NCBI GenBank assembly: GCA_005777405.1
Contig: SXMH01000211.1
Coordinates: 1-37,762, forward strand
Length of the DNA stretch: 37,762 nucleotides
Direction of reading: 5' to 3'
DNA from: Actinomycetota bacterium
Lineage (GTDB): Bacteria; Actinomycetota; Actinomycetes; Actinomycetales; Microbacteriaceae
Made by a program: the position numbers and the translations under genes. Positions 23,421-35,575 of this stretch are shown one piece after another. The first letter of the stretch is position 1; the number at the start of each line of letters is the position of its first letter. The notes under the pieces are model-generated. The model worked only from the letters and a program-made list of their open reading frames with translations, had not been told where the DNA came from and searched no databases.

Positions 23421-23465
23421 GGTTCAGGCCTCGCGGGTTCAGGTCTGGCTCATTCAGGTCTCACA
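23421..23465. repeat. Three tandem 15-bp units at the mftG stop
   Basis: ggttcaggcctcgcg, ggttcaggtctggct and cattcaggtctcaca follow each other directly. Read on the minus strand the last one contains the mftG stop codon, and the other two repeat the GACCTGA/GGCCTGA stop in the same frame. Confidence 0.75.
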
Positions 23466-24983
23466 GAGCGCGTCGGCGATGACCTCGCCGATGAGCACGG
23501 CCGTCGCTGCCGGACCGCTCGTCGGCGTCGAGGGCAGCAGCCCCACGTCGGCGATGTAGAGCCCCTCGACGCCGTGCACCGCTCCGCGACCGTCCACGAC
23601 CGACGTCGCAGGGTCGGTGCCCATCGGCGTCGTGCCGCACGTATGCAACGCCGTCGAGAGACGAGCGAGCATCCATTCGTCGAGTTCGGCGTCGTCGAGT
23701 GCCGCGAGGTGCGGGTGCTCGCTGCGCGCTCCCAACAGGCGCAGGGCGTCGTTCTCGAGGAGTACCGTGGCGAGTCGCACGGCCGCCCGCATCCGCGCTC
23801 GATCGGGCTCGGTCGAGAGGTAATGAAAATCGAGCACTGGCCGCCCCGAGTCGTCGAATCGCAGCTCGCCACGTCCCGTCGATTGCAGGGGCGACACGAG
23901 CAGACTGAGGTGATGGTCGTCGGGCTCGGTGCCGAGCATGCGGCCGAGCGGGCGCAGCACCGAGAGCACTTCGAGATCGCCGACACCGCCTCCGGCGCCG
24001 AGCTCGTCGGCGAGACCGCTGGAGCCGTGGGCCGAGACGCCGAGCGGCGCCTCGACGGCATGCGCGAGCACTGACGCTGGCGCGGTGAAGCGCAACGCGA
24101 CCTGGGGATGGTCGTGCAGCTGCGCGCCGACGGGAGCGTGCAGCACGACCGGTACGCCGGTGGCGGCAAGCGCCTCGGCCGAGCCGATGCCACTGCGCAC
24201 GAGCAGCCGCGGTGTCTCGATCGCGCCGGCGCACAGCACGACGAGATCGGCCTCGAGCACATGGCGCTGGCCTTCGGCGAGCACCTCGACACCCGTCGCG
24301 CGACCGCGCCGGTCGATCACGATGGCGATCGCCTCGTGACCGCCGCGCAGCTCGACGCCGGGGGGAACGGGGTCGAGAAACGCGCGGGCGGTGCTCCAGC
24401 GCTCGCCTCGCAGCACGTTGGTCGGCGTCGATCCGATGCCGGGCGGCAGCTCGGGGCTCGCATTCTGATCGTCGACGAGCGGGAGCCCTGCCTCCTCACC
24501 CGCCGCGAGCAGCGCAGCGCTGAGGGGGTGGCTCGATGGTGCGCGCGTGACCGGCATGGGTCCTTCGGTGCCGTGCCCTGGCGCGTGCCCGAACTCGTGG
24601 TCGTGCTCGATGCGCGACCACAGCGGGGACGTGGCTGCTGCGCTCCAGCGCGCGTCCCCCGCGATTGTCGCCCACGCGTCGAGGTCACGTTCGCGCGCAC
24701 GGCGAAAGTACCCGCCGTTGATCGCCGTCGACCCTCCCGCCGCGCGACCACGCACGACCGTGTGGTCGCGACCGGAAACGAGCACGCCGGCATAGCCGAC
24801 AGCGAGTGGATCCCCGGGCATCGCCCCCGCAAGGCTCGACGCGTCGCGGCTCTCGAACGGGGCAGGCACGGGCCCCCACTCGAGCAGCAGCACGCGGGCT
24901 CCTCGCGCGGCGAGTCGCGCGGCGAGCGGCGCGCCCGAGCCGCCCGCGCCGACGACAATGACGTCGGCCGCGGCAGAGGTCAC
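23454..24983 (-). CDS. mftG: Mycofactocin-system GMC oxidoreductase MftG
   Basis: MftG belongs to the GMC flavoprotein family. In mycobacteria it is required for mycofactocin-dependent alcohol use and is thought to re-oxidise mycofactocinol and feed electrons to respiration. The 509-residue protein has the FAD motif VIVVGAGGSGAPLAA (8-22; Glu35), the GMC signature GGSTAINGGYFRR, the second signature GAIETPRLLVRSGIG, and catalytic His447 in ALHTCGTTPMG. At the usual second catalytic position (Asn/His in NPxxT) it reads PTSGPAAT, so the partner is not obvious. The GTG start overlaps the mftR stop (GTGA), giving an mftR-mftG operon. Naming rests on this context as well as on sequence. Confidence 0.88.
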   Translation of the reverse strand: MTSAAADVIVVGAGGSGAPLAARLAARGARVLLLEWGPVPAPFESRDASSLAGAMPGDPLAVGYAGVLVSGRDHTVVRGRAAGGSTAINGGYFRRARERDLDAWATIAGDARWSAAATSPLWSRIEHDHEFGHAPGHGTEGPMPVTRAPSSHPLSAALLAAGEEAGLPLVDDQNASPELPPGIGSTPTNVLRGERWSTARAFLDPVPPGVELRGGHEAIAIVIDRRGRATGVEVLAEGQRHVLEADLVVLCAGAIETPRLLVRSGIGSAEALAATGVPVVLHAPVGAQLHDHPQVALRFTAPASVLAHAVEAPLGVSAHGSSGLADELGAGGGVGDLEVLSVLRPLGRMLGTEPDDHHLSLLVSPLQSTGRGELRFDDSGRPVLDFHYLSTEPDRARMRAAVRLATVLLENDALRLLGARSEHPHLAALDDAELDEWMLARLSTALHTCGTTPMGTDPATSVVDGRGAVHGVEGLYIADVGLLPSTPTSGPAATAVLIGEVIADALCET

Positions 24984-25609
24984 GGTCGCGGCGCGTCGTC
25001 GATGAGCATGAGGTCGCGCGCCGCGAGAAAGGCATCGTCGAGCAAGTGGCTCAGCGAGCTCGAGTCGTCGGCGAGCCACTGCTCATAGGCGGCGAGCGAC
25101 ACGCCCAGGCAGACCCAGGCCACGGTCTGCGGCACGAGCGAGTGCGCTGGCTCGCCGCGTCGCTCGGCGACGTACTCGGCGATGACCTGCCTCCAGTCGG
25201 CGTAGCGGATCGCCGAGTGCGCCACGAGGGAGGGCACCGTCAGCAGCAGCGTCATGCGCTCGCGGTGGTACTGCAGCTCGCCATCGGGGATGTGGTTGAA
25301 GACGACGATCGCGATGCGGAGAGCATCCCGCAGCGACAGGCTGGGCGGCAGGGACGCGAGGTGTGCGCGCATGCCCGCGAGCATCTCGTCGAACTGGCCC
25401 CAGGGCAGGTCGTTCTTCGAGGGGAAGTAGCGAAAGAACGTGCGGCGGCCGATGCCGCACGCCGTGGCGATGTCGTCGATCGTCACGCGGTCGAAGCCGT
25501 GCTCGATGAACAGCGAGAGGCCCGTGTGGCTGATCTCAGCGTGAGTCGTGGCGGGATGGCGGCCGATGCGAACAACGGGAGCAGCGGAAATCTTGGCGAT
25601 CTCGGACAA
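24980..25609 (-). CDS. mftR: TetR-family mycofactocin regulator MftR
   Basis: The N-terminal HTH (VTIDDIATACGIGRRTFFRYFPSKNDL, about 42-68) is a clear TetR domain, followed by an all-helical ligand domain of about 130 residues. In mycobacteria MftR represses the mft genes and responds to long-chain acyl-CoA. I place the start at TTG 25609 because AGGAGG lies 7 bases upstream; an upstream in-frame GTG at 25636 has no ribosome-binding site and lies inside a palindrome that looks like an operator. It is divergent from mftA with about 100 bases between starts and overlaps mftG by 4 bases. Self-repression is likely. Confidence 0.88.
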   Translation of the reverse strand: MSEIAKISAAPVVRIGRHPATTHAEISHTGLSLFIEHGFDRVTIDDIATACGIGRRTFFRYFPSKNDLPWGQFDEMLAGMRAHLASLPPSLSLRDALRIAIVVFNHIPDGELQYHRERMTLLLTVPSLVAHSAIRYADWRQVIAEYVAERRGEPAHSLVPQTVAWVCLGVSLAAYEQWLADDSSSLSHLLDDAFLAARDLMLIDDAPRP

Positions 25610-25631
25610 TCTGCGTCCTCCTCTTCCCTTC

Positions 25632-25644
25632 GGCACTGAGTGCC
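25632..25644. promoter_or_regulatory. Candidate MftR operator (GGCAC-TGA-GTGCC)
   Basis: A perfect dyad with 5-base arms and a 3-base centre lies in the mftR-mftA intergenic region, followed 4 bases later by another 8-bp palindrome CAGTACTG (25649-25656). The position suits control of both divergent transcripts. Assignment to MftR is inference. Confidence 0.45.
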
Positions 25645-25670
25645 AATACAGTACTGCTCACCGGAAGGTT

Positions 25671-25686
25671 CCGACATCGACGTCGG
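25671..25686. promoter_or_regulatory. Near-perfect 16-bp dyad in the mftA leader
   Basis: CCGACATCGACGTCGG reads as a palindrome with one mismatched pair. It lies 24 bases before the mftA ATG, upstream of the GAGGAGG ribosome-binding site. It could be an operator half or an mRNA hairpin. Confidence 0.35.
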
Positions 25687-25710
25687 AGCATCTACGAGGA
25701 GGAGCATGCC

Positions 25711-25815
25711 ATGAGCATCGCTGAAAGCCGCCCCACGACCGCCCACGACGAACTCGTCGAAGAGGAATCACTGGTCGAGGAAGTCTCGATCGATGGAATG
25801 TGCGGCGTCTACTAG
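25711..25815 (+). CDS. mftA: Mycofactocin precursor peptide MftA
   Basis: This tiny gene encodes 34 residues: MSIAESRPTTAHDELV, an acidic EEESLVEEVS stretch and the invariant C-terminus IDGMCGVY. That ending is the diagnostic signature of mycofactocin precursors; the final Val-Tyr pair becomes the redox cofactor after MftC decarboxylates and cyclises it. GAGGAGG lies 8 bases before the ATG, one of the strongest ribosome-binding sites in the window, suiting a precursor needed in excess. mftB starts 7 bases after its stop. It is easily missed by gene callers because of its length. Confidence 0.97.
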   Translation: MSIAESRPTTAHDELVEEESLVEEVSIDGMCGVY

Positions 25816-25822
25816 GCCCGGC

Positions 25823-26113
25823 ATGGACCTTCCGCCGCTCGACCTCAGACTCACCATCCACCCGCGCGTCTCGGTGCGCCCCGAGCCCTTCGGCGCGTTG
25901 CTGTATCACTTCGGCACGCGCCAGCTGAGCTTTCTGAAAGACCGCACACTGCTCGGCATCGTGCAGAGCCTTGATGGAGATCGCTCGCTCGGCGAAGCGA
26001 TCGAGCTCGAAGGCGTCACGCCCGATCGCGTCGACCGCTACCGTCGCGCCATCGGCACGCTCATGGCCTCGTCGATGCTCGTGCCCGCCGCGCGCACGGA
26101 GGCTGCAGCATGA
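25823..26113 (+). CDS. mftB: Mycofactocin peptide chaperone MftB
   Basis: MftB is a PqqD-like peptide-binding protein (RiPP recognition element) that presents MftA to the radical SAM enzyme. The 96-residue protein has the RRE-like N-terminal strands (HPRVSVRPEPFGALLYHF, then TRQLSFLKDRTLLGIVQSL) and a winged-helix-type C-terminal half. ATG 25823 was chosen because a longer in-frame start would overlap the end of mftA. The stop overlaps the mftC ATG by 4 bases (ATGA). Confidence 0.95.
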   Translation: MDLPPLDLRLTIHPRVSVRPEPFGALLYHFGTRQLSFLKDRTLLGIVQSLDGDRSLGEAIELEGVTPDRVDRYRRAIGTLMASSMLVPAARTEAAA

Positions 26114-27450
26114 CGCTCATCGACTCGCCCACCGTCACAGCATCGACGCCGGCGCCGCCCGCTGCACCGCGGCCACCCGCGACGTCACAGACCCTGCTCG
26201 GTCACTTCGAGCGCGGACTCGACGCTCCCATCTGCCTGACGTGGGAACTCACCTACGCGTGCAACCTCTCGTGCAGCCACTGCCTCTCGAGCTCGGGCCG
26301 TCGAGACCCGCGCGAACTCACGACAGAAGAGTGCAAGGGCATCATCGACGAGCTGCAGCGCATGCAGGTCTTCTACGTCAACATCGGCGGCGGCGAGCCG
26401 ACAGTGCGCAGCGACTTCTGGGAGCTCGTCGACTATGCGACGGCGCACCAGGTGGGGGTGAAGTTCTCGACCAACGGTGTGAAGATCACCCCCGAGGTCG
26501 CGCAGCGCCTCGCGGCGAGCGACTACGTCGACGTGCAGATCTCACTCGACGGCGCGACCGCCGAGGTCAACGACTTCGTGCGCGGCCCGGGGTCGTACGA
26601 CCTCGCGATGCGCGCGATGCAGAACCTCTTCGATGCAGGCTTCCGCGGCTTCAAGCTCTCGGTCGTGTGCACGCGCCAGAACATCGGTCAGCTCGATGAG
26701 TTCGCGGCGATCGCCGAACGGTTCGGTGCGCAGTTGCGACTCACGCGCCTGCGGCCGAGCGGTCGCGGCGCCGACGTGTGGGACGAACTGCACCCCCTGC
26801 CCGAGCAGCAGCGCGAGCTCTACGACTGGCTCGTCGCCAACGGCGACCGCGTGCTCACCGGCGACTCGTTCTTTCACCTCTCGGCATTCGGCGAGGCGCT
26901 GCCCGGTCTCAACCTCTGCGGTGCCGGCCGCGTGGTGTGCCTCATTGACCCGATCGGTGATGTCTACGCCTGCCCCTTCGCGATTCACGACGAGTTTCTC
27001 GCGGGCAACATTCGCGAGCCCGGCGGGTTCACGAGCGTGTGGCGCGAATCGTCGCTCTTCCAGCGGCTGCGCGAGCCCACCGGCGGCGGAGCCTGCGGCT
27101 CGTGCTCGTTCTACGACTCGTGCCGCGGTGGCTGCATGGCCGCCAAGTTCTTCACGGGCCTGCCGCTCGACGGCCCTGACCCGGAGTGCGTGCGGGGTTT
27201 CGGCGAGCAACTGCTCGCCGAGCGGGCGATGGATGCTGTGCCCAAGCCCACGGGCGATCACTCGCACCGCACCTCGCCGCCGCGCCCGCGCGGCTCGACC
27301 GGTCCCGTGCCACTCACGTTGAGCATCCGTCGTCCTGATGCCCCACCGGTGCACGCGTGCGCCGAAAGCCCGCTCGCGGGCTTCTCTCCTGACGCCGCGA
27401 CAACTCAGACTCTCACCGCCGCAGGGTGCGCCTGCGGAACCGACCACTAG
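26110..27450 (+). CDS. mftC: Mycofactocin radical SAM maturase MftC
   Basis: MftC uses S-adenosylmethionine and iron-sulfur clusters to decarboxylate the C-terminal Tyr of MftA and join it to Val. The 446-residue protein has the radical SAM motif CNLSCSHC (Cys51, 55, 58), GGGEP (93-97) and a SPASM domain with Cys at 270, 277, 288, 329, 332, 338, 342 and 360, enough for two auxiliary clusters. The first 40 residues are Pro/Ala/Thr-rich. After residue 370 a tail of about 75 residues is mostly disordered-looking but contains the ACAESPLAGF stretch and ends CACGTDH, with three more Cys. Coupled to mftB. Confidence 0.96.
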   Translation: MTLIDSPTVTASTPAPPAAPRPPATSQTLLGHFERGLDAPICLTWELTYACNLSCSHCLSSSGRRDPRELTTEECKGIIDELQRMQVFYVNIGGGEPTVRSDFWELVDYATAHQVGVKFSTNGVKITPEVAQRLAASDYVDVQISLDGATAEVNDFVRGPGSYDLAMRAMQNLFDAGFRGFKLSVVCTRQNIGQLDEFAAIAERFGAQLRLTRLRPSGRGADVWDELHPLPEQQRELYDWLVANGDRVLTGDSFFHLSAFGEALPGLNLCGAGRVVCLIDPIGDVYACPFAIHDEFLAGNIREPGGFTSVWRESSLFQRLREPTGGGACGSCSFYDSCRGGCMAAKFFTGLPLDGPDPECVRGFGEQLLAERAMDAVPKPTGDHSHRTSPPRPRGSTGPVPLTLSIRRPDAPPVHACAESPLAGFSPDAATTQTLTAAGCACGTDH

Positions 27451-27635
27451 GAGCCGCCCGGCCCATCCACCCTCACGAGCCCGGCCCGCTCACCCGCACC
27501 ATCTCCCACATCGATGAGCCGCGCGGCATCGCCGCCGCGGTGGTTCGTCGTACCCGCGCGGCGCACGCGCGCAGAACCTTCTGAGCCACACCACTCACCC
27601 GCACCACTCACCCACAACACCGAAGGAGGCACGCG

Positions 27636-28442
27636 ATGGGGCGTGTATCAGGAAAAGTCGCATTCGTCACCGGCGCAGCACGAGGACAGGGCCGCGCGCA
27701 CGCGCTGCGGCTCGCCGAGGAGGGGGCCGACATCATCGCGGTCGATCTCTGTGCTCCCGTGCCCGATCTGCAGTACCCGCCGGCGACGCCGGATGATCTC
27801 GCCGAGACGGTGAAGCAGATCGAAGCGCTCGACCGCCGCATCGTGGCGAAGCAAGCCGATGTGCGCGACTTCGCGGCACTGAGCGCGGCCGTCGACGAGG
27901 GCGTCGCCGAGCTCGGCGGTCTCGACATCGTCGTCGGCAACGCGGGTATCTGCATCATTGCCGATGCCGAAAGCACGACGCCCGAGATCTGGAAGAACAC
28001 GATCGACACGAACCTCACGGGCGTGTGGCACACCGTGCAGGCCGCCGTGCCGCACCTCAAGGCACGTGGCGGCGGCTCGATCATTCTCACGAGCTCGGCA
28101 GCCGGCCTCGTCGGGCTCCCGTTCCTCACCGCCTACATCGCAGCGAAGCACGGCGTCACTGGGCTCGGCAAGGCCTACGCCATTGAGCTCGGGCGCTTCG
28201 GCATTCGCGTCAACACCTTGCACCCGGGCGGAGTCGACACGGCGATGGGCGGAATGGGTGCGGCCTTCCCCGAGTACATCGAGAAGAACCCCGGCATCGT
28301 CATGGGCGGCTACGGAGTGCTGCCCGAAACGACCACGCAGCCGCGCGATCAAGCCAACGCCGTGCTGTGGCTCGCCTCTGACGAGGCGAAGTTCGTCACC
28401 GGCACGCAGGTCTCGGTCGATGCGGGCATGGTCGTCTGCTGA
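27636..28442 (+). CDS. Mycofactocin-coupled SDR family oxidoreductase 1
   Basis: This 268-residue short-chain dehydrogenase has the cofactor motif TGAARGQGR (12-20), NAG at 102-104, and the catalytic triad Ser154, Tyr167, Lys171 (YIAAK). An insertion after the second strand (PVPDLQYPPATPDDLAETV) is the hallmark of mycofactocin-coupled SDRs, in which it buries NAD so that it cannot exchange and needs mycofactocin as acceptor. Carveol dehydrogenase is a characterised relative; the substrate here is unknown. GAAGGAGG precedes the ATG. It is about 185 bases downstream of mftC, a gap with short cactcaccc repeats but no clear terminator. A strong hairpin follows. Confidence 0.92.
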   Translation: MGRVSGKVAFVTGAARGQGRAHALRLAEEGADIIAVDLCAPVPDLQYPPATPDDLAETVKQIEALDRRIVAKQADVRDFAALSAAVDEGVAELGGLDIVVGNAGICIIADAESTTPEIWKNTIDTNLTGVWHTVQAAVPHLKARGGGSIILTSSAAGLVGLPFLTAYIAAKHGVTGLGKAYAIELGRFGIRVNTLHPGGVDTAMGGMGAAFPEYIEKNPGIVMGGYGVLPETTTQPRDQANAVLWLASDEAKFVTGTQVSVDAGMVVC

Positions 28443-28462
28443 CCCGAGATCACTGACCCATC

Positions 28463-28488
28463 GGGGGCGGTCGTGAGCGGCCGCCCCC
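28463..28488 (+). terminator. GC hairpin between SDR 1 and SDR 2
   Basis: GGGGGCGGTC (28463-28472) pairs with GGCCGCCCCC (28479-28488) around a 6-base loop, with one T-G pair. There is no T tract, so partial termination or mRNA processing is possible. Confidence 0.6.
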
Positions 28489-28542
28489 ACCACCGGCCCC
28501 ACCGTGGTGTGCCGGGCAACACCCACCAGGAAGGAGAACGCA

Positions 28543-29376
28543 ATGGGGCGTTTAGACGGAAAAGTGGTGTTCATCACGGGCGTCGCCCGCGGACAGGGTC
28601 GCAGTCACGCGATTCGGTTCGCTGAGGAGGGCGCCGACATCATCGGCATCGACGTGGTCGAGCCGATCGCGGGCAGCACCTCGCCGCCCGCCACGCAGGC
28701 CGACATGGACGAGACGGTGCGAGCGGTTGAAGCACTCGATCGGCGCATCGTGGCGACCAAGGCCGACGTGCGCAGCCTTGAGCAGGTCAAGAAAGCGGTC
28801 GATGACGGTGTGGCGCAACTCGGCCGACTCGACGTCGTCATCGCCAACGCTGGCGTCTCGACCTTCATGGGGCCCGCAGAGTCACTCACCGAAGAGGCGT
28901 TCGTCGACATGGTCGACATCAACCTCACCGGCGTGTGGCGCTCGTGCGCGGCAGCGATTCCGCACATCAAGGCGGGTGGTCGTGGTGGCTCGATCATCAT
29001 GACGAGCTCGGCGGCGGGCCTCATGGCCTACGCCAACGTCGGTCACTACGTCGCGGCCAAGCACGGTGTCGTCGGCCTCATGCGCACCCTCGCGCTCGAG
29101 TTGGCACCCGACAGCATCAGGGTCAACTCGATTCACCCGACCACGGTTGACACTCCGATGGTCAACAACGAGGCGACCTTCCGCCTCTTCCGACCCGACG
29201 TTGAGAACCCCGGTGTCGACGACTTCATCGAAGCGGCGAAAGTCATGAACGCCTTGCCCATCGGATGGGTCGAGGCCGTCGACATCTCCAACGCCATGGT
29301 GTGGCTCGCCTCTGATGAGGCCCGCTACGTCACGGGCGTCACGCTGCCGGTCGACGCCGGCGCCGTCATCAAGTAG
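28543..29376 (+). CDS. Mycofactocin-coupled SDR family oxidoreductase 2
   Basis: This 277-residue paralogue of the preceding gene has TGVARGQGR (12-20), the NAD-burying insertion PIAGSTSPPATQADMDETV, and Ser156, Tyr169, Lys173 (YVAAK). It is closer to SDR 3 than to SDR 1: the two have identical length and share VEALDRRIVATKADVR and GLMRTLALELAP. The start at 28543 follows AAGGAG; an upstream in-frame start lacks one. Expected to oxidise an alcohol, passing electrons to mycofactocin; the alcohol is not known. Confidence 0.92.
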   Translation: MGRLDGKVVFITGVARGQGRSHAIRFAEEGADIIGIDVVEPIAGSTSPPATQADMDETVRAVEALDRRIVATKADVRSLEQVKKAVDDGVAQLGRLDVVIANAGVSTFMGPAESLTEEAFVDMVDINLTGVWRSCAAAIPHIKAGGRGGSIIMTSSAAGLMAYANVGHYVAAKHGVVGLMRTLALELAPDSIRVNSIHPTTVDTPMVNNEATFRLFRPDVENPGVDDFIEAAKVMNALPIGWVEAVDISNAMVWLASDEARYVTGVTLPVDAGAVIK

Positions 29377-29384
29377 TCGCACGA

Positions 29385-29413
29385 GCCCGGCCCGCGGGTC
29401 ACGCGGGCCGGGC
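29385..29413 (+). terminator. Perfect 11-bp GC hairpin between SDR 2 and SDR 3
   Basis: GCCCGGCCCGC (29385-29395) pairs perfectly with GCGGGCCGGGC (29403-29413) around a 7-base loop. It starts 8 bases after the SDR 2 stop and has no T tract. Confidence 0.65.
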
Positions 29414-29452
29414 ATCCACCGCAGAGACAACACGAACGTAAAGGAGACCACC

Positions 29453-30286
29453 ATGGGTCGATTGGACGGAAAAGTCGTACTGGTGTCGGGCGTTGCCCGC
29501 AGCCAGGGCCGCAGCCACGCGCTGCGCTTCGCGCAAGAGGGCGCCGACGTCATCGGGTTCGACGTGCTCGACGAGATCAAGGGCTCGCCCTCGCCGGCAG
29601 CGACGCAGGCCGACATGGATGAGACCGTGCGGCAAGTGGAAGCGCTCGATCGTCGCATCGTCGCCACGAAAGCCGATGTGCGCGACTACGCGGCAGTGAA
29701 GGCTGCCGTCGAGGAGGGCGTGGCGCAGCTCGGCCGCATCGACGTGGTGCTCGGCAACGCGGGTGTCTTCACAGCGCCCTCGCTCGCGGAGGATATGGAA
29801 GACGACATCTTCATGGACACCCTCGACATCAACGTCGCGGGCGTCTGGCGCACGGCGAAGGCCGCGATTCCGCATCTGAAGAAGAACGAGCACGGCGGGT
29901 CGATCATTCTCACGAGCTCGGTCGCCGGGCTCATGGGGTACCCCAACTTCGCGCACTACGTGGCGTCGAAGCACGCGGTGGTCGGCCTCATGCGCACCCT
30001 CGCGCTCGAACTCGCGCCGCACCACATTCGCGTCAACTCAGTGCACCCGGGCTCGGTCAACACGGTCATGGTGATGAACGACACACTCGCCCGGCTGTTC
30101 AGGCCCGACTTGGAGAACCCGACGACGGACGACTTCAAGGCGGTGGCCAAGCAGATGAACCCCATGGGCATCGACTTGCTCGAGGCCTACGACATCTCGA
30201 ACGCCATGGTGTTCTTGGCATCGGATGAGGCCCGCTACATCACGGGCGTGACACTGCCAGTCGACGCCGGAACGATGGTCCAGTGA
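29453..30286 (+). CDS. Mycofactocin-coupled SDR family oxidoreductase 3
   Basis: This 277-residue paralogue of SDR 2 has Ser156, Tyr169, Lys173 (YVASK) and the insertion EIKGSPSPAATQADMDETV. The cofactor loop reads SGVARSQGR, with Ser in place of the Gly seen in its two neighbours, a change that could alter NAD affinity. Start follows AAAGGAG at 29453. Unlike the other two it is not followed by a hairpin: its stop overlaps the start of the AAA+ ATPase gene (GTGA), tying this dehydrogenase to the ATPase/VWA pair. Confidence 0.92.
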   Translation: MGRLDGKVVLVSGVARSQGRSHALRFAQEGADVIGFDVLDEIKGSPSPAATQADMDETVRQVEALDRRIVATKADVRDYAAVKAAVEEGVAQLGRIDVVLGNAGVFTAPSLAEDMEDDIFMDTLDINVAGVWRTAKAAIPHLKKNEHGGSIILTSSVAGLMGYPNFAHYVASKHAVVGLMRTLALELAPHHIRVNSVHPGSVNTVMVMNDTLARLFRPDLENPTTDDFKAVAKQMNPMGIDLLEAYDISNAMVFLASDEARYITGVTLPVDAGTMVQ

Positions 30287-31197
30287 CCGAATCACCCGAC
30301 GTCTCGGCGAGCCGCACGCGGGTCGCCGAGCACCACGTCGGCCGCGAGCGTGAGATCGAAATCCCGCTCGCGGCCGTCGCGGCCGGTCGCGACATCGTGC
30401 TCGAGGGCCCGCCCGGCACGAGCAAGACCACGATGCTGCGCGCGATCACCGAAGAGTGGGGCATTCCGCTGCTCTTCGTCGAGGGCAACGCCGACCTCAC
30501 GCCGGCGAAGCTCGTGGGGCATCACAACCCCTCGCGCGTGCTGCGCGAGGACTATTCGCCCGACAACTTCGTGCCGGGGCCGCTCACCGAAGCCATGCAG
30601 ACTGGCGGTTTTCTCTACATCGAAGAGTTCAACCGCGCGCCCGATGACACGCTCAACACCCTTCTCACCGCTATGGCCGATCGGCGACTCGCGATTCCTC
30701 GCGTTGGCATGATCGAGGCGCTACCGACCTTCCGGGTCATCGCCTCCATGAACCCCTACGACAACGTCGGCACCACGAAGCTTTCGTCGTCGATCACCGA
30801 CCGTCTCAACCGGCTCGCCGTCGACTACCAAGGCGCTGAGGCCGAGGAGTCGATCGTGCGATTGCGCGCAGCACCCGCGGGGCCGCTCGCCGACCGACTC
30901 GTGGCCGATGCGGTCGCCGTCACGCGCGCAACGCGCACGCACACGTTCGTTCGGCAGGGCTCGAGCGTGCGCGGCGCGATCGACCTCGTTGCCGTCGCGA
31001 TGCAGTTGGCCGAGCTGCGCGACGTCGCTGTTGCCGACGACGATCGCTACCCCGAGCTCGTGTTCGACGCGATGGTCGTGGCGCTCTCCGGCCGCATCCA
31101 CATCGACGAGGCGGTTGACATCACGCCCGAAGCGGTTCTGCGCGAGATCTGGCAAGACCGCTTCATTCTCGAACCCGCGCTCGCGGAGCCCGGATGA
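30283..31197 (+). CDS. MoxR-type AAA+ ATPase in the mycofactocin operon
   Basis: The 304-residue protein has Walker A GPPGTSKT (42-49), Walker B FLYIEE (Glu114/115), sensor 1 in VIASMNP (Asn157) and an arginine-containing SSSITDRLNRL segment, then a C-terminal helical lid. MoxR/CbbQ-type ATPases work with a VWA-domain partner to activate or insert cofactors into enzymes, for example methanol dehydrogenase or Rubisco. The VWA partner follows directly. Coupled by GTGA to SDR 3. I infer that the pair conditions a mycofactocin-linked dehydrogenase or MftD; no direct evidence in sequence. Confidence 0.9.
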   Translation: MTESPDVSASRTRVAEHHVGREREIEIPLAAVAAGRDIVLEGPPGTSKTTMLRAITEEWGIPLLFVEGNADLTPAKLVGHHNPSRVLREDYSPDNFVPGPLTEAMQTGGFLYIEEFNRAPDDTLNTLLTAMADRRLAIPRVGMIEALPTFRVIASMNPYDNVGTTKLSSSITDRLNRLAVDYQGAEAEESIVRLRAAPAGPLADRLVADAVAVTRATRTHTFVRQGSSVRGAIDLVAVAMQLAELRDVAVADDDRYPELVFDAMVVALSGRIHIDEAVDITPEAVLREIWQDRFILEPALAEPG

Positions 31198-31203
31198 AGA
31201 GAG

Positions 31204-32184
31204 GTGCAGCTCGATTCTCCGATTCGGCGCGAACGTCGAGGTACGCGATCGACGACACCGAGCAGGCCGTTGTCGAGAGCACCAAAGCAGTTGTCGGAGC
31301 AGCCGAAGGTGTTCGAGCCGGGCGAAGGTGGGGCGGGGATGGTCTTCCGATCGCGCCCCGCGCCTCGCACCGGTCACACCGTGCAGCGACCGGGTGGCAC
31401 GGCGGAGGGCTTCACCGACGAGGTCGCCGAGCTTGTACCCGTGGAGGCGACGGGCGAGTTGGATGCCTCGGTGCGGGCGCTCGCGCGGCAGATCGCCTCA
31501 CGGCTCATGATTCCGCGACCGAAGAACGACGCGCGATCACATCGCGGCTCGGGCGCGCTCGCGAGCGTGCCGTATCGCCGGGGCTCCGACGAGATCGATC
31601 TCGACAAGACCATCGAGATGCTCGCCGAGCGGCCCGTACCAGAAGACGAAGACATCATCGTGCGCGAGCGGGTGCGCACGCGGCGTTCGCTCGTACTCGT
31701 CGTCGATGTCTCGGGCTCGATGAAGGGCGAACGCATCCGATCGGCAGCCGCGATCGTGGGGGCGCTTGCAGGCGAGCTCTCCGACGACGACCTCGCGGTC
31801 ATCGCCTTCTGGTCAGATGCCGCCGTGCTGCAGTCGTTCGGCCAGCACCAGAGCCCCGATCGCCTGCTCGATCTGCTGACGAGCATTCCCGCGCGCGGTC
31901 TCACGAATGTCGGCTTTCCGCTCGAGCTCGCGGCGCGCGAGCTGCGCAAGCGCCCCGCGCAGGACGCGCGGGTGCTGCTGCTCTCAGACTGCGTGCACAA
32001 TGCGGGGCCCGATCCGCGACCGATCGCCCGTCGACTGGCGCGCCTCGACGTCATGCTCGACCTCAGCGGCGAGCACGACACCGAACTCGCCCGCGAGCTC
32101 TCGCGCGCCGGCCGCGGCATGCTGCAGACCGTCACCACCCACCGCGACGTGGGCCCAGCCTTGACGAGGATCTTCGCCTCGTGA
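31204..32184 (+). CDS. VWA-domain protein, partner of the AAA+ ATPase
   Basis: The 326-residue protein has a disordered, Arg/Pro-rich N-terminal half (about 1-120) and a C-terminal von Willebrand A domain with a complete MIDAS metal site: DVSGSM (168-173), a Thr in RGLTNVG near 236 and Asp in LLLSDCVHNAG near 263. This matches the CoxE/CbbO-like partners of MoxR ATPases. GTG 31204 lies 6 bases after the ATPase stop with GAGAG close by. A competing frame from ATG 31194 lacks the GC-rich third positions. mftD follows after 43 bases. Confidence 0.87.
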   Translation: MQLDSPIRRERRGTRSTTPSRPLSRAPKQLSEQPKVFEPGEGGAGMVFRSRPAPRTGHTVQRPGGTAEGFTDEVAELVPVEATGELDASVRALARQIASRLMIPRPKNDARSHRGSGALASVPYRRGSDEIDLDKTIEMLAERPVPEDEDIIVRERVRTRRSLVLVVDVSGSMKGERIRSAAAIVGALAGELSDDDLAVIAFWSDAAVLQSFGQHQSPDRLLDLLTSIPARGLTNVGFPLELAARELRKRPAQDARVLLLSDCVHNAGPDPRPIARRLARLDVMLDLSGEHDTELARELSRAGRGMLQTVTTHRDVGPALTRIFAS

Positions 32185-32227
32185 ACCGACCCGCCCCCCT
32201 CACGCACCATCACAAGGAGAACGCATC

Positions 32228-33400
32228 ATGAGCAAGAACGCCTGGTTCGAGACCGTCGCCGAGGCCCAGCGTCGCGCAGAGAGACGCCTGCCGGCGCCCG
32301 TCTATGGCGCCCTCATCGCGGGGTCGGAGAAGGGCGTGACGCTCGACGACAACATCGCGGCCTACAGCGAGCTCGGCTTCGCCCCGCGCATCGCCGACCA
32401 CCACGCGCAGCGCGACCTGTCGACCTCCGTCATGGGCATCCCCATTTCGATGCCCGTCATCATCTCGCCGACCGGCGTGCAAGCCGTGCACCCCGAGGGC
32501 GAGGTCGCCGTCGCGCGGGCGGCGAAGAACCGCGGCACGATCATGGGCCTCAGCTCGTTCGCCTCGAAGTCGGTCGAAGACGTCACGGCGGCGAACCCCA
32601 ACACGCTCTTCCAGGTCTATTGGAGCGGCGCGAAGGACGAGATGGTGCACCGCCTCGAGCGCGCCAAGGCTGCGGGTGCGAAAGGACTCATCGCCACCCT
32701 CGACTGGTCGTTTTCGCACGGACGCGACTGGGGCAGCCCGCAGATTCCCGAGCGCCTGACGCTCGGCGCCGCCATGAACTTTGCCCCTCACGCGCTGCCG
32801 CGCATCCCGTGGCTGTGGAGTTTCGCGAAGACCTTCCGTATTCCCGACCTCAAGGCGCCCAACCTCGAACCGAAGGGTGGCGGCGAAGCGCCCACCTTCT
32901 TCGGCGCCTATGGCGAGTGGATGGGCACGCCCCCGCCCAGCTGGGACGACGTGCGGTGGTTGCGCGAGCAGTGGGACGGCCCCTTCATGCTCAAGGGCGT
33001 GGGCCGGGTCGATGATGCCAAGCGCGCGATCGACATCGGGGCGACGACCATCTCGGTCTCGAACCACGGCGGCAATAACCTCGACACCATTCCGGCCCCC
33101 ATTCGCATGCTGCCCGGCATTGTCGACGCCGTCGGCGACCAGATCGAGGTCGTGCTCGATGGTGGTGTGCGCCGGGGTTCAGACGTCGTCAAGGCTGTCG
33201 CGCTCGGTGCTCGTGCCGTCATGATCGGGCGCGCCTACCTCTGGGGCCTCGCCGCGAACGGGCAGGCGGGCGTCGAGAACGTGCTCGACATCATGCGCGG
33301 TGGCATCGATTCGGCGCTGCTCGGCCTCGGTCGAGGATCGCTGAGCGAGCTCACTCGCGACGACATCTACGTGCCCGAGGACTTCGCGAGGGTGCGCTGA
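32228..33400 (+). CDS. mftD: Mycofactocin biosynthesis FMN-dependent deaminase MftD
   Basis: MftD is an FMN enzyme of the lactate-oxidase/glycolate-oxidase family that oxidatively deaminates the released pyrrolidinone intermediate to give redox-active premycofactocin. The 390-residue protein has the family pattern: MPVIISPTGVQAVHPEGEVA, LKGVGRVDDAKRAID, the catalytic His280 in SNHGGNNLD (family SxHGGRQLD, here Asn where Arg is usual, as expected for MftD), and LDGGVRRGSDVVKAVALGA phosphate-binding loops. AAGGAG precedes the ATG. It is separated from mftABC by five genes, unlike the compact mycobacterial order. Confidence 0.95.
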   Translation: MSKNAWFETVAEAQRRAERRLPAPVYGALIAGSEKGVTLDDNIAAYSELGFAPRIADHHAQRDLSTSVMGIPISMPVIISPTGVQAVHPEGEVAVARAAKNRGTIMGLSSFASKSVEDVTAANPNTLFQVYWSGAKDEMVHRLERAKAAGAKGLIATLDWSFSHGRDWGSPQIPERLTLGAAMNFAPHALPRIPWLWSFAKTFRIPDLKAPNLEPKGGGEAPTFFGAYGEWMGTPPPSWDDVRWLREQWDGPFMLKGVGRVDDAKRAIDIGATTISVSNHGGNNLDTIPAPIRMLPGIVDAVGDQIEVVLDGGVRRGSDVVKAVALGARAVMIGRAYLWGLAANGQAGVENVLDIMRGGIDSALLGLGRGSLSELTRDDIYVPEDFARVR

Positions 33401-33434
33401 GTCGCGGCGGGCGCGTCGAGTCGAGCGACCCCGC

Positions 33435-33440
33435 TACGGT
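33435..33440 (+). promoter_or_regulatory. -10 element TACGGT, internal leaderless promoter for mftE-mftF
   Basis: TACGGT ends 6 bases before the GTG of mftE at 33447, in the 46-base gap after mftD, with no Shine-Dalgarno sequence before the start. Confidence 0.5.
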
Positions 33441-33446
33441 GGCGTC

Positions 33447-34151
33447 GTGACCCGACTCGACGAGGCCGCCTGGCCGAGCATCCCGAACGGAGCCCTGCTG
33501 CTCGTGCCTCTCGGGTCGACCGAGCAGCACGGACCGCACTTGCCGTTCACGGTCGACGCGCGCGTTGCGTCAGCGGTGGCGGTGGCGGTCGGTGCGCGAC
33601 TCGACGCGGTGGTCGCACCGGTATTGGCGTTTGGCTCGAGCGGCGAGCACCAGCAGTTCGCGGGCACGCTCTCGATTGGTCAGGATGCCCTGCGCCTGCT
33701 GCTCGTCGAGCTCGTGCGCTCGGCGCGCACGTGGGCGGCTCGCGTCGTGCTGGTGAACGGGCACGGCGGCAATGTGCCGGTGCTGTCGGAAGTCGTGCCG
33801 AGCTTGCGCGGCGAAGGGCATGATGTCGCGTGGCTCGGGCTCGGTAGTGCTGGAGCGTCGGGCGACGCGCACGCCGGGCGCACCGAGACCTCGCTCATGC
33901 TGCATCTCGACCCGGCGCGCGTCGCAGGTTTCGACGACGTCGTTGGTGCGACCGCCCCGATCACCGAACTCATGCCGGCACTACGCGACGGGCGGTTGCG
34001 CGAGGTGGCACCAAACGGAGTGCTCGGCGACGCCCGTGGCGCGACCGCGGCCGAGGGTGCGGCGCTGCTGGGCTCGATGGTCGACGAGGCTGTCGCGCGC
34101 ATTCGGCTCGGCGACGTCGGCCCGCTCGGCGAACTGCGGGGCCGCGCGTGA
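33447..34151 (+). CDS. mftE: Mycofactocin peptidase MftE (creatininase family)
   Basis: MftE cuts the modified Val-Tyr dipeptide from the MftA leader. The 234-residue protein has the creatininase metal-site motifs: GSTEQHGPHLP (Glu26, His28), Asp37, NGHGGN with His106, and AHAGRTETS with Glu147, so both metal sites look intact. GTG start behind a leaderless-type promoter. Its stop overlaps the mftF GTG by 4 bases. Confidence 0.95.
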   Translation: MTRLDEAAWPSIPNGALLLVPLGSTEQHGPHLPFTVDARVASAVAVAVGARLDAVVAPVLAFGSSGEHQQFAGTLSIGQDALRLLLVELVRSARTWAARVVLVNGHGGNVPVLSEVVPSLRGEGHDVAWLGLGSAGASGDAHAGRTETSLMLHLDPARVAGFDDVVGATAPITELMPALRDGRLREVAPNGVLGDARGATAAEGAALLGSMVDEAVARIRLGDVGPLGELRGRA

Positions 34152-35575
34152 GACTGCCCGACGGGTTCACCGTGCGTCTCAACCGCCGCACGCACGTGGC
34201 CGACAGGGGCGCGACGCTCGTGGGCGGCGTGCCGACGAAAGTGCTCTATCTCACGGCGCTCGCGCAGTCGATGCTGCACGGCGGGGTGCTCGTCGTGCGG
34301 TCGGCAGCCACGGCGGCGCTCGCCGAGCGACTGCTCGAGGCCGGCATTGCCGACCCGGTGGTTGCCGAGCTGCCCGAGCTCGAGGCCGGGTACGCCGGAG
34401 GGCCATCGGCCAGTGCCGTGACGGTCGTCGTGCCCGCGCACGATCGACCTGATGCGCTCGCGCGGCTGCTCGCGAGCATCCCGTCGGGGGTGCCGGTCGT
34501 CGTCGTCGATGACGCCTCGCGGCGGCCCGAGCCGATGCGACGGGTGGCAGACGAGTTCGGCGCGCGACTGCTTGTCATGCCGCGCAACGGAGGGCCGGCT
34601 GAGGCGCGGAACGCGGGACTCGCGGTCGTCGACACACCTTTCGTCGCGTTCGTTGACAGCGACATGGTGCTCGACGCTGACACGCTGCCGCTGCTGCTGC
34701 GGCACTTCGCCGACCCACGCGTCGGACTCGTCGCGCCGCGCATCGCGGGCCTCGAGCCCGAGGGCGGGTCGAACTGGATCACGCGCTACGAGGCGGCGCG
34801 GTCGTCACTCGACCTCGGGGCGGAGCCGGCGAACGTGCGGCCCGGCGCGCGCGTCTCGTGGCTGCCGGCGGCGTGCCTCGTGGCACGCACGGACGCGATC
34901 GGCGCCGGGTTCACGCCGCGCATGCGCGTGGCCGAGGACGTCGATCTCGTGTGGCGACTGTGCGAGTCGGGCTGGCGCGTGCGCTACGAGCCCGCCGTCG
35001 AGGCGCGGCACGAGCACCGCCGCACCGTTCTCGACTGGCTCGGCCGCAAAGCGTTCTACGGCACGGGCGCCGACGACCTCGCCGCTCGACACGGCGACAC
35101 GGTTGCGCCCGCCGTGTTCACGCCATGGACTCTGGTCTTCGTCGGAGCCTTGCTCGCTCAACGGCGCTGGTCGCTGCCCGTCGCCGCGGGGGCGGCAGCG
35201 GTTGCCGCCGTGCGCATCGGCTCGCGGTTGAGGCCGACGCCCGATCGTGTGCGCATCGCCGTGCGACTCACCGGGCTCGGGGCGCTCGCCGCGACGGCGC
35301 AAACAGCTGAACTGTTGACGCGGCACTGGTGGCCGCTCGCTCTCGTCGGCTCGGCCGTGTCGCGGCGGGTGCGACGGGCAACGGTCGTTGCTGCGGTCGC
35401 CGACGCAGTCTATGAACACCGCCGCACCGAGACCGGCATGGGGCTGGTCTCGTTCGCGGTGGCGCGGCGGCTCGACGACCTCGCCTACGGCGCGGGAGTG
35501 TGGTGGGGCGCACTGCGGGCGCGGTCGATCCGTGCGCTACGGCCGGTCGTGCGGGTGCAGTCGCGCATGCGGTAG
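34148..35575 (+). CDS. mftF: Mycofactocin glycosyltransferase MftF
   Basis: MftF is a family 2 glycosyltransferase that adds a chain of beta-1,4-linked glucose to premycofactocin. In the 475-residue protein an N-terminal part of about 85 residues precedes the GT-A domain: VTVVVPAHDRPDALARL (91-107), VDDAS, NGGPAEARN (148-156), DSD (170-172) and EDVDLVWR (263-270). The C-terminal part has hydrophobic stretches after residue 320 that suggest membrane association. GTG start overlapping mftE. It is the last gene of the cluster; the next gene is convergent. Confidence 0.94.
   Translation: MRLPDGFTVRLNRRTHVADRGATLVGGVPTKVLYLTALAQSMLHGGVLVVRSAATAALAERLLEAGIADPVVAELPELEAGYAGGPSASAVTVVVPAHDRPDALARLLASIPSGVPVVVVDDASRRPEPMRRVADEFGARLLVMPRNGGPAEARNAGLAVVDTPFVAFVDSDMVLDADTLPLLLRHFADPRVGLVAPRIAGLEPEGGSNWITRYEAARSSLDLGAEPANVRPGARVSWLPAACLVARTDAIGAGFTPRMRVAEDVDLVWRLCESGWRVRYEPAVEARHEHRRTVLDWLGRKAFYGTGADDLAARHGDTVAPAVFTPWTLVFVGALLAQRRWSLPVAAGAAAVAAVRIGSRLRPTPDRVRIAVRLTGLGALAATAQTAELLTRHWWPLALVGSAVSRRVRRATVVAAVADAVYEHRRTETGMGLVSFAVARRLDDLAYGAGVWWGALRARSIRALRPVVRVQSRMR

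Follow-up and report, generated by a model that had tools for sequence, protein, structure and literature searches.

The window analysed in this work, 37,762 nucleotides of Microbacteriaceae DNA (contig SXMH01000211.1, positions 1 to 37,762), contains a mycofactocin (mft) operon in which a gene for a MoxR-type AAA+ ATPase is followed by one for a VWA-domain protein. This MoxR/VWA pair belongs to a discrete family found across Actinomycetota, with a sharp boundary, and is not a local oddity; its steadier partner is a mycofactocin-coupled dehydrogenase, rather than MftD, the cofactor genes or the biosynthesis cluster, and its MoxR subclades follow the class of that dehydrogenase. With a probability of roughly 0.6, we consider the pair to be a dedicated MoxR AAA+/VWA remodelling machine, activase-like in its action, for mycofactocin-dependent nicotinoprotein dehydrogenases. 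The novelty, judging from gene context, would be a MoxR/VWA machine that has mycofactocin-coupled dehydrogenases as its client class.

Motifs, fold and family boundary of the pair

The window MoxR carries what we take to be Walker A (GPPGTSKT), Walker B (FLYIEE), sensor-1 (ASMNP) and arginine-finger (DRLNR) motifs and a sensor-2 region (GSSVRGA), and most of these residues do not vary among 30 aligned sequences, the window's own being one of them. The metal ion-dependent adhesion site (MIDAS) of the VWA protein is made up of DVSGS, LTN and LSD, its residues D168, S170, S172, T234 and D262 being invariant among 30 aligned VWA sequences, again with that of the window. An initial annotation of the window had described an ATPase with intact Walker motifs together with a VWA protein whose MIDAS is complete, placed between the third short-chain dehydrogenase/reductase (SDR3) gene and mftD; this description, including coordinates and strand, is borne out, as the MoxR start overlaps the SDR3 stop in a GTGA, and 6 and 43 bases separate MoxR from the VWA gene and the VWA gene from mftD, respectively.

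In structural comparisons of the AlphaFold2 (AF2) model of MoxR, NorQ and CbbQ structures occupied ranks 1-10 (Z 20.1-23.9), led by NorQ 9qh9_C and CbbQ 6l1q_A (both Z 23.9), and the next other fold scored Z 17.4. The fold matches of the VWA model were generic, and we attach no meaning to the fact that the VWA domains of NorD and CbbO were not among the 50 matches listed. Motifs, nearest fold and the adjacent VWA gene place the protein in the CbbQ/GvpN/NorQ group of MoxR AAA+ ATPases. The window MoxR reached no curated NCBIfam cut-off, the best match being GvpN (TIGR02640, 81.8 bits against a cut-off of 266.8), and all 30 aligned MoxRs matched the GvpN and MadB models at a threshold of E<=1e-5, which is distinct from the curated cut-offs. 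Two other assignments were rejected. For a ternary MoxR-VWA-beta-propeller system, bpMoxR (PF20030) was a near miss, with 26.0 bits against a cut-off of 27, and the genes from mftC to mftF were all identified, with no beta-propeller protein among them; for anti-phage defence, PADLOC yielded a weak IetA match (17.8 bits) for MoxR and nothing for the VWA protein.

The family is clearly delimited. GTDB genomes scanned with 11 aligned MoxRs yielded 66 loci at 43-78% best-segment identity and 14 at 24-34%; these counts come from the best 80 matches and are hence lower bounds. Across 25 mft genomes, 28 family matches scored at least 216 bits (at least 42% identity) and other MoxR-like matches at most 85 bits, while the window genome holds three other MoxR matches of 27-33% identity.

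Dehydrogenase genes directly upstream of MoxR

Neighbours were classified for 109 MoxR matches (loci L002-L125) that score at least 190 bits against the window protein, the class being the nearest recognised gene and 'directly upstream' meaning same strand and within 400 bp. Matches below 190 bits, L061 (same record as L013) and L001 (the window, a duplicate of L096) were dropped before counting; the classification stops short of L126-L155, among which L152-L154 are MoxR pieces of 166-180 bits and L155 is the L105 region. Some species may be counted twice across collections, and L051 and L114 are nearly identical.

Thus defined, MoxR lies directly behind a mycofactocin-coupled dehydrogenase in 87 of the 109 matches, namely 60 alcohol dehydrogenases (ADHs) dependent on N,N-dimethyl-4-nitrosoaniline (NDMA; TIGR03989), 23 SDRs of the window type (TIGR03971) and 4 SDRs of a second type (TIGR04504), all three families being NDMA-dependent or mycofactocin-coupled by their NCBIfam names. 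The median gap between dehydrogenase and MoxR is 72 bp (85 pairs with unbroken frames), frames being broken in two of the 23 window-type SDRs (L010 and L024). All 60 upstream ADHs matched TIGR03989 at E<=1e-130, and TIGR03971 was matched at E<=1e-88 by each of the 22 SDRs in the scan (the divergent one of L022 and 21 of the 23 upstream ones, those of L010 and L024 standing outside it); these thresholds lie near the curated cut-offs and are not identical to them. The four SDRs of the second type all passed the TIGR04504 and NF040491 cut-offs, and the 25 MoxR-adjacent ADHs of the phylum sample all exceeded that of TIGR03989. Of the other matches, three come from tandems behind an SDR, where they are the second MoxR, and L022 and L030 each have a nearby SDR on the opposite strand. 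A VWA gene follows MoxR on the same strand within 600 bp in 102/109 cases; the remaining seven correspond to the first MoxR of a tandem (3) or to a contig edge (4).

The tandem arrangement SDR-MoxR-MoxR-VWA, with a mycofactocin-coupled SDR and two different MoxR genes, is found in L040 (10001-11668), L098 (1498-3307) and L105 (566-2325), where a mixed hexamer is possibly formed. Six consecutive SDR genes precede the pair in Agromyces (L016, 4628-9948), a large client expansion. A record titled as a Bifidobacterium breve metagenome-assembled genome (MAG; L052) carries an mft cluster and a MoxR that groups with those of Actinomycetota MAGs, so its label looks doubtful.

Co-occurrence with mycofactocin biosynthesis

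Among 396 Actinomycetota genomes, the family was present in 33, MftC in 51 and both in 27, against an expectation of 4.25 (Fisher p 3e-22, uncorrected for relatedness), which upholds the association with mft loci anticipated by the initial annotation. Six family-positive genomes gave no MftC match at E<=1e-100: in one (G429) MftC is in two pieces, one of them over the cut-off; two (G366 and G540) are drafts less than 90% complete with an adjacent TIGR03989 ADH; the MoxR of G239 groups with an outgroup-like sequence; and G228 and G497 are partial matches. Within the window's order (198 genomes), MftC occurs in 13 genomes and accompanies the family in 9 of 10. As a paralogue control, a TIGR03989 ADH was located within 5 kb of 22/28 family matches and of 0/90 other MoxR-like matches in the 25 genomes that have MftC as well as the family (a piece at G573:C76:7831, the end of a family member, was omitted).

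The distance between mftC and MoxR on the same contig ranges from 1.2 kb to 2.7 Mb, whereas 25 of the 38 family matches in the 396-genome sample lie 2-120 bp behind a TIGR03989 ADH; it is on these grounds that the dehydrogenase is the steadier partner. The initial annotation had regarded an equally frequent occurrence of the pair away from mft genes as a sign against its proposal, and the pair is indeed far from the biosynthesis genes at times, yet it still lies beside a mycofactocin-coupled dehydrogenase.

The mft operon of the window (23454-35575) is sporadic in its bacterial family, neither MftC nor the pair being present in any of the 13 same-family genomes listed, which suggests horizontal gain. 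A general stress MoxR pair passively hitch-hiking in mobile operons would fit such a distribution; however, the repeated adjacency to three enzyme families, the lack of a TIGR03989 ADH near any of the other MoxR-like matches of the control, and the intact motifs make this barely credible.

MoxR subclades and dehydrogenase classes

The MoxR tree comprises 115 rows and was built by a quick method that leaves many open forks, and its shuffle figures, like those given below, are not corrected for relatedness. Over the 87 rows bearing one of the three dehydrogenase labels, which leaves out the rows labelled 'none' (17), outgroup (6), tandem (3) or divergent (2), the labels change twice, the minimum, against at least 20 changes in 200 shuffles; with all seven labels, 21 changes compare with 50.6 after shuffling. 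Furthermore, SDR-type and ADH-type pairs coexist in six genomes (G049, G093, G249, G429, G514 and Geodermatophilus sp. DF01-2), each behind its own enzyme class. Distance matrices of MoxR and ADH correlate with r=0.46 (60 pairs), and in the small sample of 11 loci with mftC the partial correlation of MoxR with ADH given mftC is 0.60, that of MoxR with mftC given ADH being 0.24.

Within each class, no single enzyme lineage stands out. The MoxR-adjacent SDRs form no clade and are scattered among the SDRs of their loci (15 changes against 16.8 shuffled, a value as low being reached in 118/500 shuffles), hence co-evolution specific to SDR3, which had been expected from the initial annotation, is unsupported at this sampling. 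The MoxR-adjacent ADHs show some clustering yet are distributed over the TIGR03989 tree (17 changes against 26.1 shuffled), and a single ADH subclade as the client is unsupported. It appears that a whole enzyme class, and not one SDR, is served by the pair. The general idea of the earlier proposal, that a mycofactocin enzyme has an energy-dependent helper not described before, is strongly supported by context, through the co-occurrence with MftC and the position behind three dehydrogenase families, while SDR3 or MftD as the specific partner is not supported.

A partnership with mycofactocin biosynthesis (MftD, MftE or MftF) instead of with the dehydrogenases could be read from the short distance between the window pair and mftD, and from L009, L054 and L059, in which the pair is beside mftC, mftE or mftF without an adjacent dehydrogenase. 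Nevertheless, the pairs of G227 and G249 lie 1.0 to 2.7 Mb from mftC and directly behind a dehydrogenase, and MoxR subclades track dehydrogenase class, and we consider such a partnership highly improbable.

Proposed function

We regard mycofactocin-coupled dehydrogenases as the functional partners of the pair with high confidence. Physical binding, ATP-driven remodelling and a step at nicotinamide adenine dinucleotide (NAD) are what we infer on the basis of known relatives and of client biochemistry. In the proposed mechanism, the motor would be a MoxR hexamer and the adaptor the VWA protein, which would take hold of the dehydrogenase at an acidic residue by means of the MIDAS metal; hydrolysis of ATP would then strain the client and open its closed NAD site. 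The purpose would most likely be activase-like, namely to clear dead-end or wrong nicotinamide states, or to re-open the site, so that electrons could again be passed to mycofactocin.

The TIGR03971, TIGR03989 and an iron-dependent family have been tied to mycofactocin, with non-exchangeable NAD in some members (PMC3023750; here and below, findings cited by PMC number refer to excerpts of the papers). In TIGR03971 SDRs an insertion covers the buried NAD, for which nuclear magnetic resonance detected no exchange, and NAD co-purified with mycobacterial members of the family expressed in E. coli (PMC5264612). The feature common to client SDRs and zinc ADHs would be no metal but an NAD that is tightly held and that mycofactocin re-oxidises in place, and from this we derive an activase or cofactor-handling role.

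SDRs operate through a Ser-Tyr-Lys site and need no metal, so metal insertion is not a common function of the pair: SDRs make up two of the three dehydrogenase classes, and S156, Y169 and K173 are invariant in the TIGR03971 set. We thus see very little chance of a NorQD-like machine that places zinc in the dehydrogenase, even with NorQ among the nearest folds and with invariant cysteines and a histidine kept by the adjacent ADHs at positions that we presume to be zinc ligands. NorQD itself has been described as driving metal insertion (PMC13036017).

Folding or assembly is another alternative, in which the pair would be a chaperone for dehydrogenase folding, NAD uptake during assembly or oligomer formation, with no re-activation of the mature enzyme. 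The adjacency to dehydrogenases in 87/109 matches fits this equally, and MoxR/VWA pairs have been linked to enzyme maturation elsewhere (PMC12657314). On the other hand, protein was obtained for 42 of 69 mycobacterial TIGR03971 SDR targets, and 9 of 10 crystal structures contained NAD, apparently co-purified after expression in E. coli (PMC5264612) and apparently without such a partner; this argument is weak, because the group to which those SDRs belong may do without the pair. On balance, we consider a chaperone unlikely as an account of the whole, and whether the step is cofactor handling rather than folding or assembly is an even call. The more specific proposal, an overlooked, class-specific and ATP-driven activase present in many actinobacterial mycofactocin systems, which would reset the tightly held NAD of nicotinoprotein dehydrogenases through separate SDR and ADH isoforms, is put forward tentatively, at slightly less than even odds.

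Loci and genomes that depart from the association

Several observations weigh against an activase devoted to mycofactocin-dependent dehydrogenases. Biochemically, E. coli-made mycobacterial TIGR03971 SDRs hold co-purified NAD (PMC5264612), therefore NAD loading as such needs no pair there, and re-opening or resetting is favoured over first loading. Regarding gene context, 17 of the 109 MoxR matches have no mycofactocin-coupled dehydrogenase directly upstream. Six of these are L009, L054 and L059, which adjoin mft biosynthesis genes, L025, near mftC-like fragments, L057, at a contig edge, and L072, with an ADH 2.1 kb upstream; for the remaining 11, no mft gene, contig edge or distant ADH offers an explanation. 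Some of the 17 matches belong to related pairs in other settings: flanked by genes for a DUF2284 protein and an MttB-like methyltransferase in a Peptococcaceae MAG (L070, 9376-13453; 46-47% identity), which suggests a non-mycofactocin client outside Actinomycetota; behind a beta-keto acid cleavage enzyme (BKACE) in a Deltaproteobacteria MAG (L079, 4083-6989); and behind FabG-like SDRs in L067 (9129-11853) and L074 (7879-10573), which matched no mycofactocin-coupled family at E<=1e-50 and may represent either a client switch or overlooked mycofactocin enzymes. In L027, also one of the 17, MoxR is preceded by an MftD-like, lactate-dehydrogenase-like flavoprotein, which is not MftD itself, as it scores 173.5 bits against the TIGR03966 cut-off of 470.85.

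With regard to distribution, the family is missing from 24 of the 51 MftC genomes (13 of the 14 in bacterial family f22, all 8 in f69, plus G271, G469 and G560), therefore mycofactocin enzymes can work without the pair. The mft loci of G136, G164 and G271 contain client-like SDRs (41-52% identity) and no MoxR in about 20 kb. Further, only 25 of the 94 TIGR03989 ADHs over the cut-off (57 genomes) adjoin the family, a figure that becomes 25 of 42 in family-positive genomes. Given the family-less MftC genomes and the many non-adjacent ADHs, the pair is common yet dispensable for the enzyme class.

As separate observations, the eight f69 genomes (G359, G403, G422, G433, G536, G545, G553 and G577; 1.5-2.2 Mb) have kept MftC and TIGR03989 ADHs with no MoxR of the family, and 4 of the 6 f69 ADHs compared form a separate branch. 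In Granulicoccus (L021, 8443-10885), no recognised dehydrogenase adjoins the pair; its upstream gene encodes, in our reading, a PadR-like protein, and luciferase-like and MmgE/PrpD genes are nearby.

The mycofactocin operon of the window

The window corresponds to contig C209 of a draft genome of 2.48 Mb in 219 contigs (81.5% complete). Its plus-strand operon runs in the order mftA, mftB, mftC, three SDR genes, MoxR, VWA, mftD, mftE and mftF; mftR and an mftG-like gene lie on the minus strand (Table 1). NCBIfam cut-offs were passed by MftB, MftC, MftD, MftE, MftR, SDR1 and SDR2, and SDR3 passed that of TIGR03971; a mycofactocin cluster is thus recognised from mftA-mftE and mftR, by family cut-off or motif. 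The mftG-like product is perhaps a divergent MftG.

Table 1. Coordinates of the MoxR/VWA pair and of the mft genes in the window.
Feature	Position	Strand	Evidence
MoxR-type AAA+ ATPase, putative motor of the pair	30283..31197	+	304 aa; Pfam AAA_5 87.9 bits; motifs; AF2 pLDDT 90.0
VWA-domain (CoxE-like) putative adaptor, complete MIDAS	31204..32184	+	326 aa; Pfam VWA_2, VWA_CoxE; AF2 pLDDT 82.4; start codon uncertain
SDR3, mycofactocin-coupled SDR, likely client class	29453..30286	+	TIGR03971 369.8 bits, cut-off 300 (scanned as L096)
SDR2, mycofactocin-coupled SDR, likely client class	28543..29376	+	TIGR03971 386.7 bits, cut-off 300 (scanned from 28540)
SDR1, mycofactocin-coupled SDR, likely client class	27636..28442	+	TIGR03971 354.6 bits, cut-off 300
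mftD	32228..33400	+	TIGR03966 681.2 bits
mftE	33447..34151	+	TIGR03964 270.9 bits
mftF (glycosyltransferase family 2, GT2)	34148..35575	+	Pfam GT2 and position only
mftC, radical SAM maturase	26110..27450	+	TIGR03962 655.2 bits
mftB	25823..26113	+	TIGR03967 92.8 bits (scanned from 25793)
mftA, precursor peptide	25711..25815	+	34 aa; C-terminal IDGMCGVY
mftR	24980..25636	-	TIGR03968 260.7 bits
mftG-like GMC oxidoreductase	23454..24983	-	TIGR03970 327.7 bits, under cut-off 387.45

Significance and comparison with known systems

No description of a mycofactocin-linked MoxR/VWA pair was found in the full-text literature, a scope outside which subscription papers and preprints fall. The words MoxR, ATPase, VWA and AAA are all absent from the text of the 2011 mycofactocin survey, and in the available part of PMC11778925 'ATPase' appears once, among transcriptome terms. 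The retrieved papers with mycofactocin in the title are mycobacterial by title or abstract, and the pair may have been overlooked owing to this focus, since f22, in our reading the mycobacterial/nocardial group, is poor in the family. The pair adds to the mycofactocin redox system a conserved component unmentioned in the literature searched, and makes testable how an enzyme whose NAD is closed in and non-exchangeable comes to be repaired, opened or reset. It would also bring NAD-binding dehydrogenases within the range of MoxR/VWA machines, which are known from metal centres and rubisco, and, if the proposal is true, represent a MoxR/VWA activase targeting a nicotinamide cofactor site. In practice, NDMA-dependent ADHs and carveol-type SDRs from pair-bearing genomes may need the pair for full activity.

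The gene set of the described mycofactocin system, with its mft genes and nicotinoproteins, is present in the window. Outside that system, a MoxR and a VWA protein beside an actinobacterial oxidoreductase cluster are known from the CO dehydrogenase pair MSMEG_0748/MSMEG_0751, although the enzyme there is a molybdenum CO dehydrogenase (PMC12657314), and the word mycofactocin is absent from the text of that paper. NorQ/NorD likewise combines the nearest fold of the window MoxR with a VWA MIDAS partner, the NorD MIDAS being required for the client and not for NorQ binding (PMC9976466), and NorQD is described as exerting a twisting action through the NorD linker for metal insertion into nitric oxide reductase (PMC13036017). 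By contrast, NorD is a 70-kDa protein (PMC9976466), whereas the window VWA protein has 326 aa, and its SDR clients would need no metal. In CbbQ/CbbO, the AAA+ protein is the motor and the VWA protein the adaptor, CbbO binding rubisco by its VWA domain, and two isoform sets exist, each specific for one of two rubisco forms (PMC4660213). The window MoxR has the fold of CbbQ (6l1q_A) and a VWA partner, and the class-specific MoxR subclades of its family resemble the CbbQO isoform sets; unlike CbbQ/CbbO, whose client is rubisco, the window pair likely has a mycofactocin-coupled dehydrogenase as its client.

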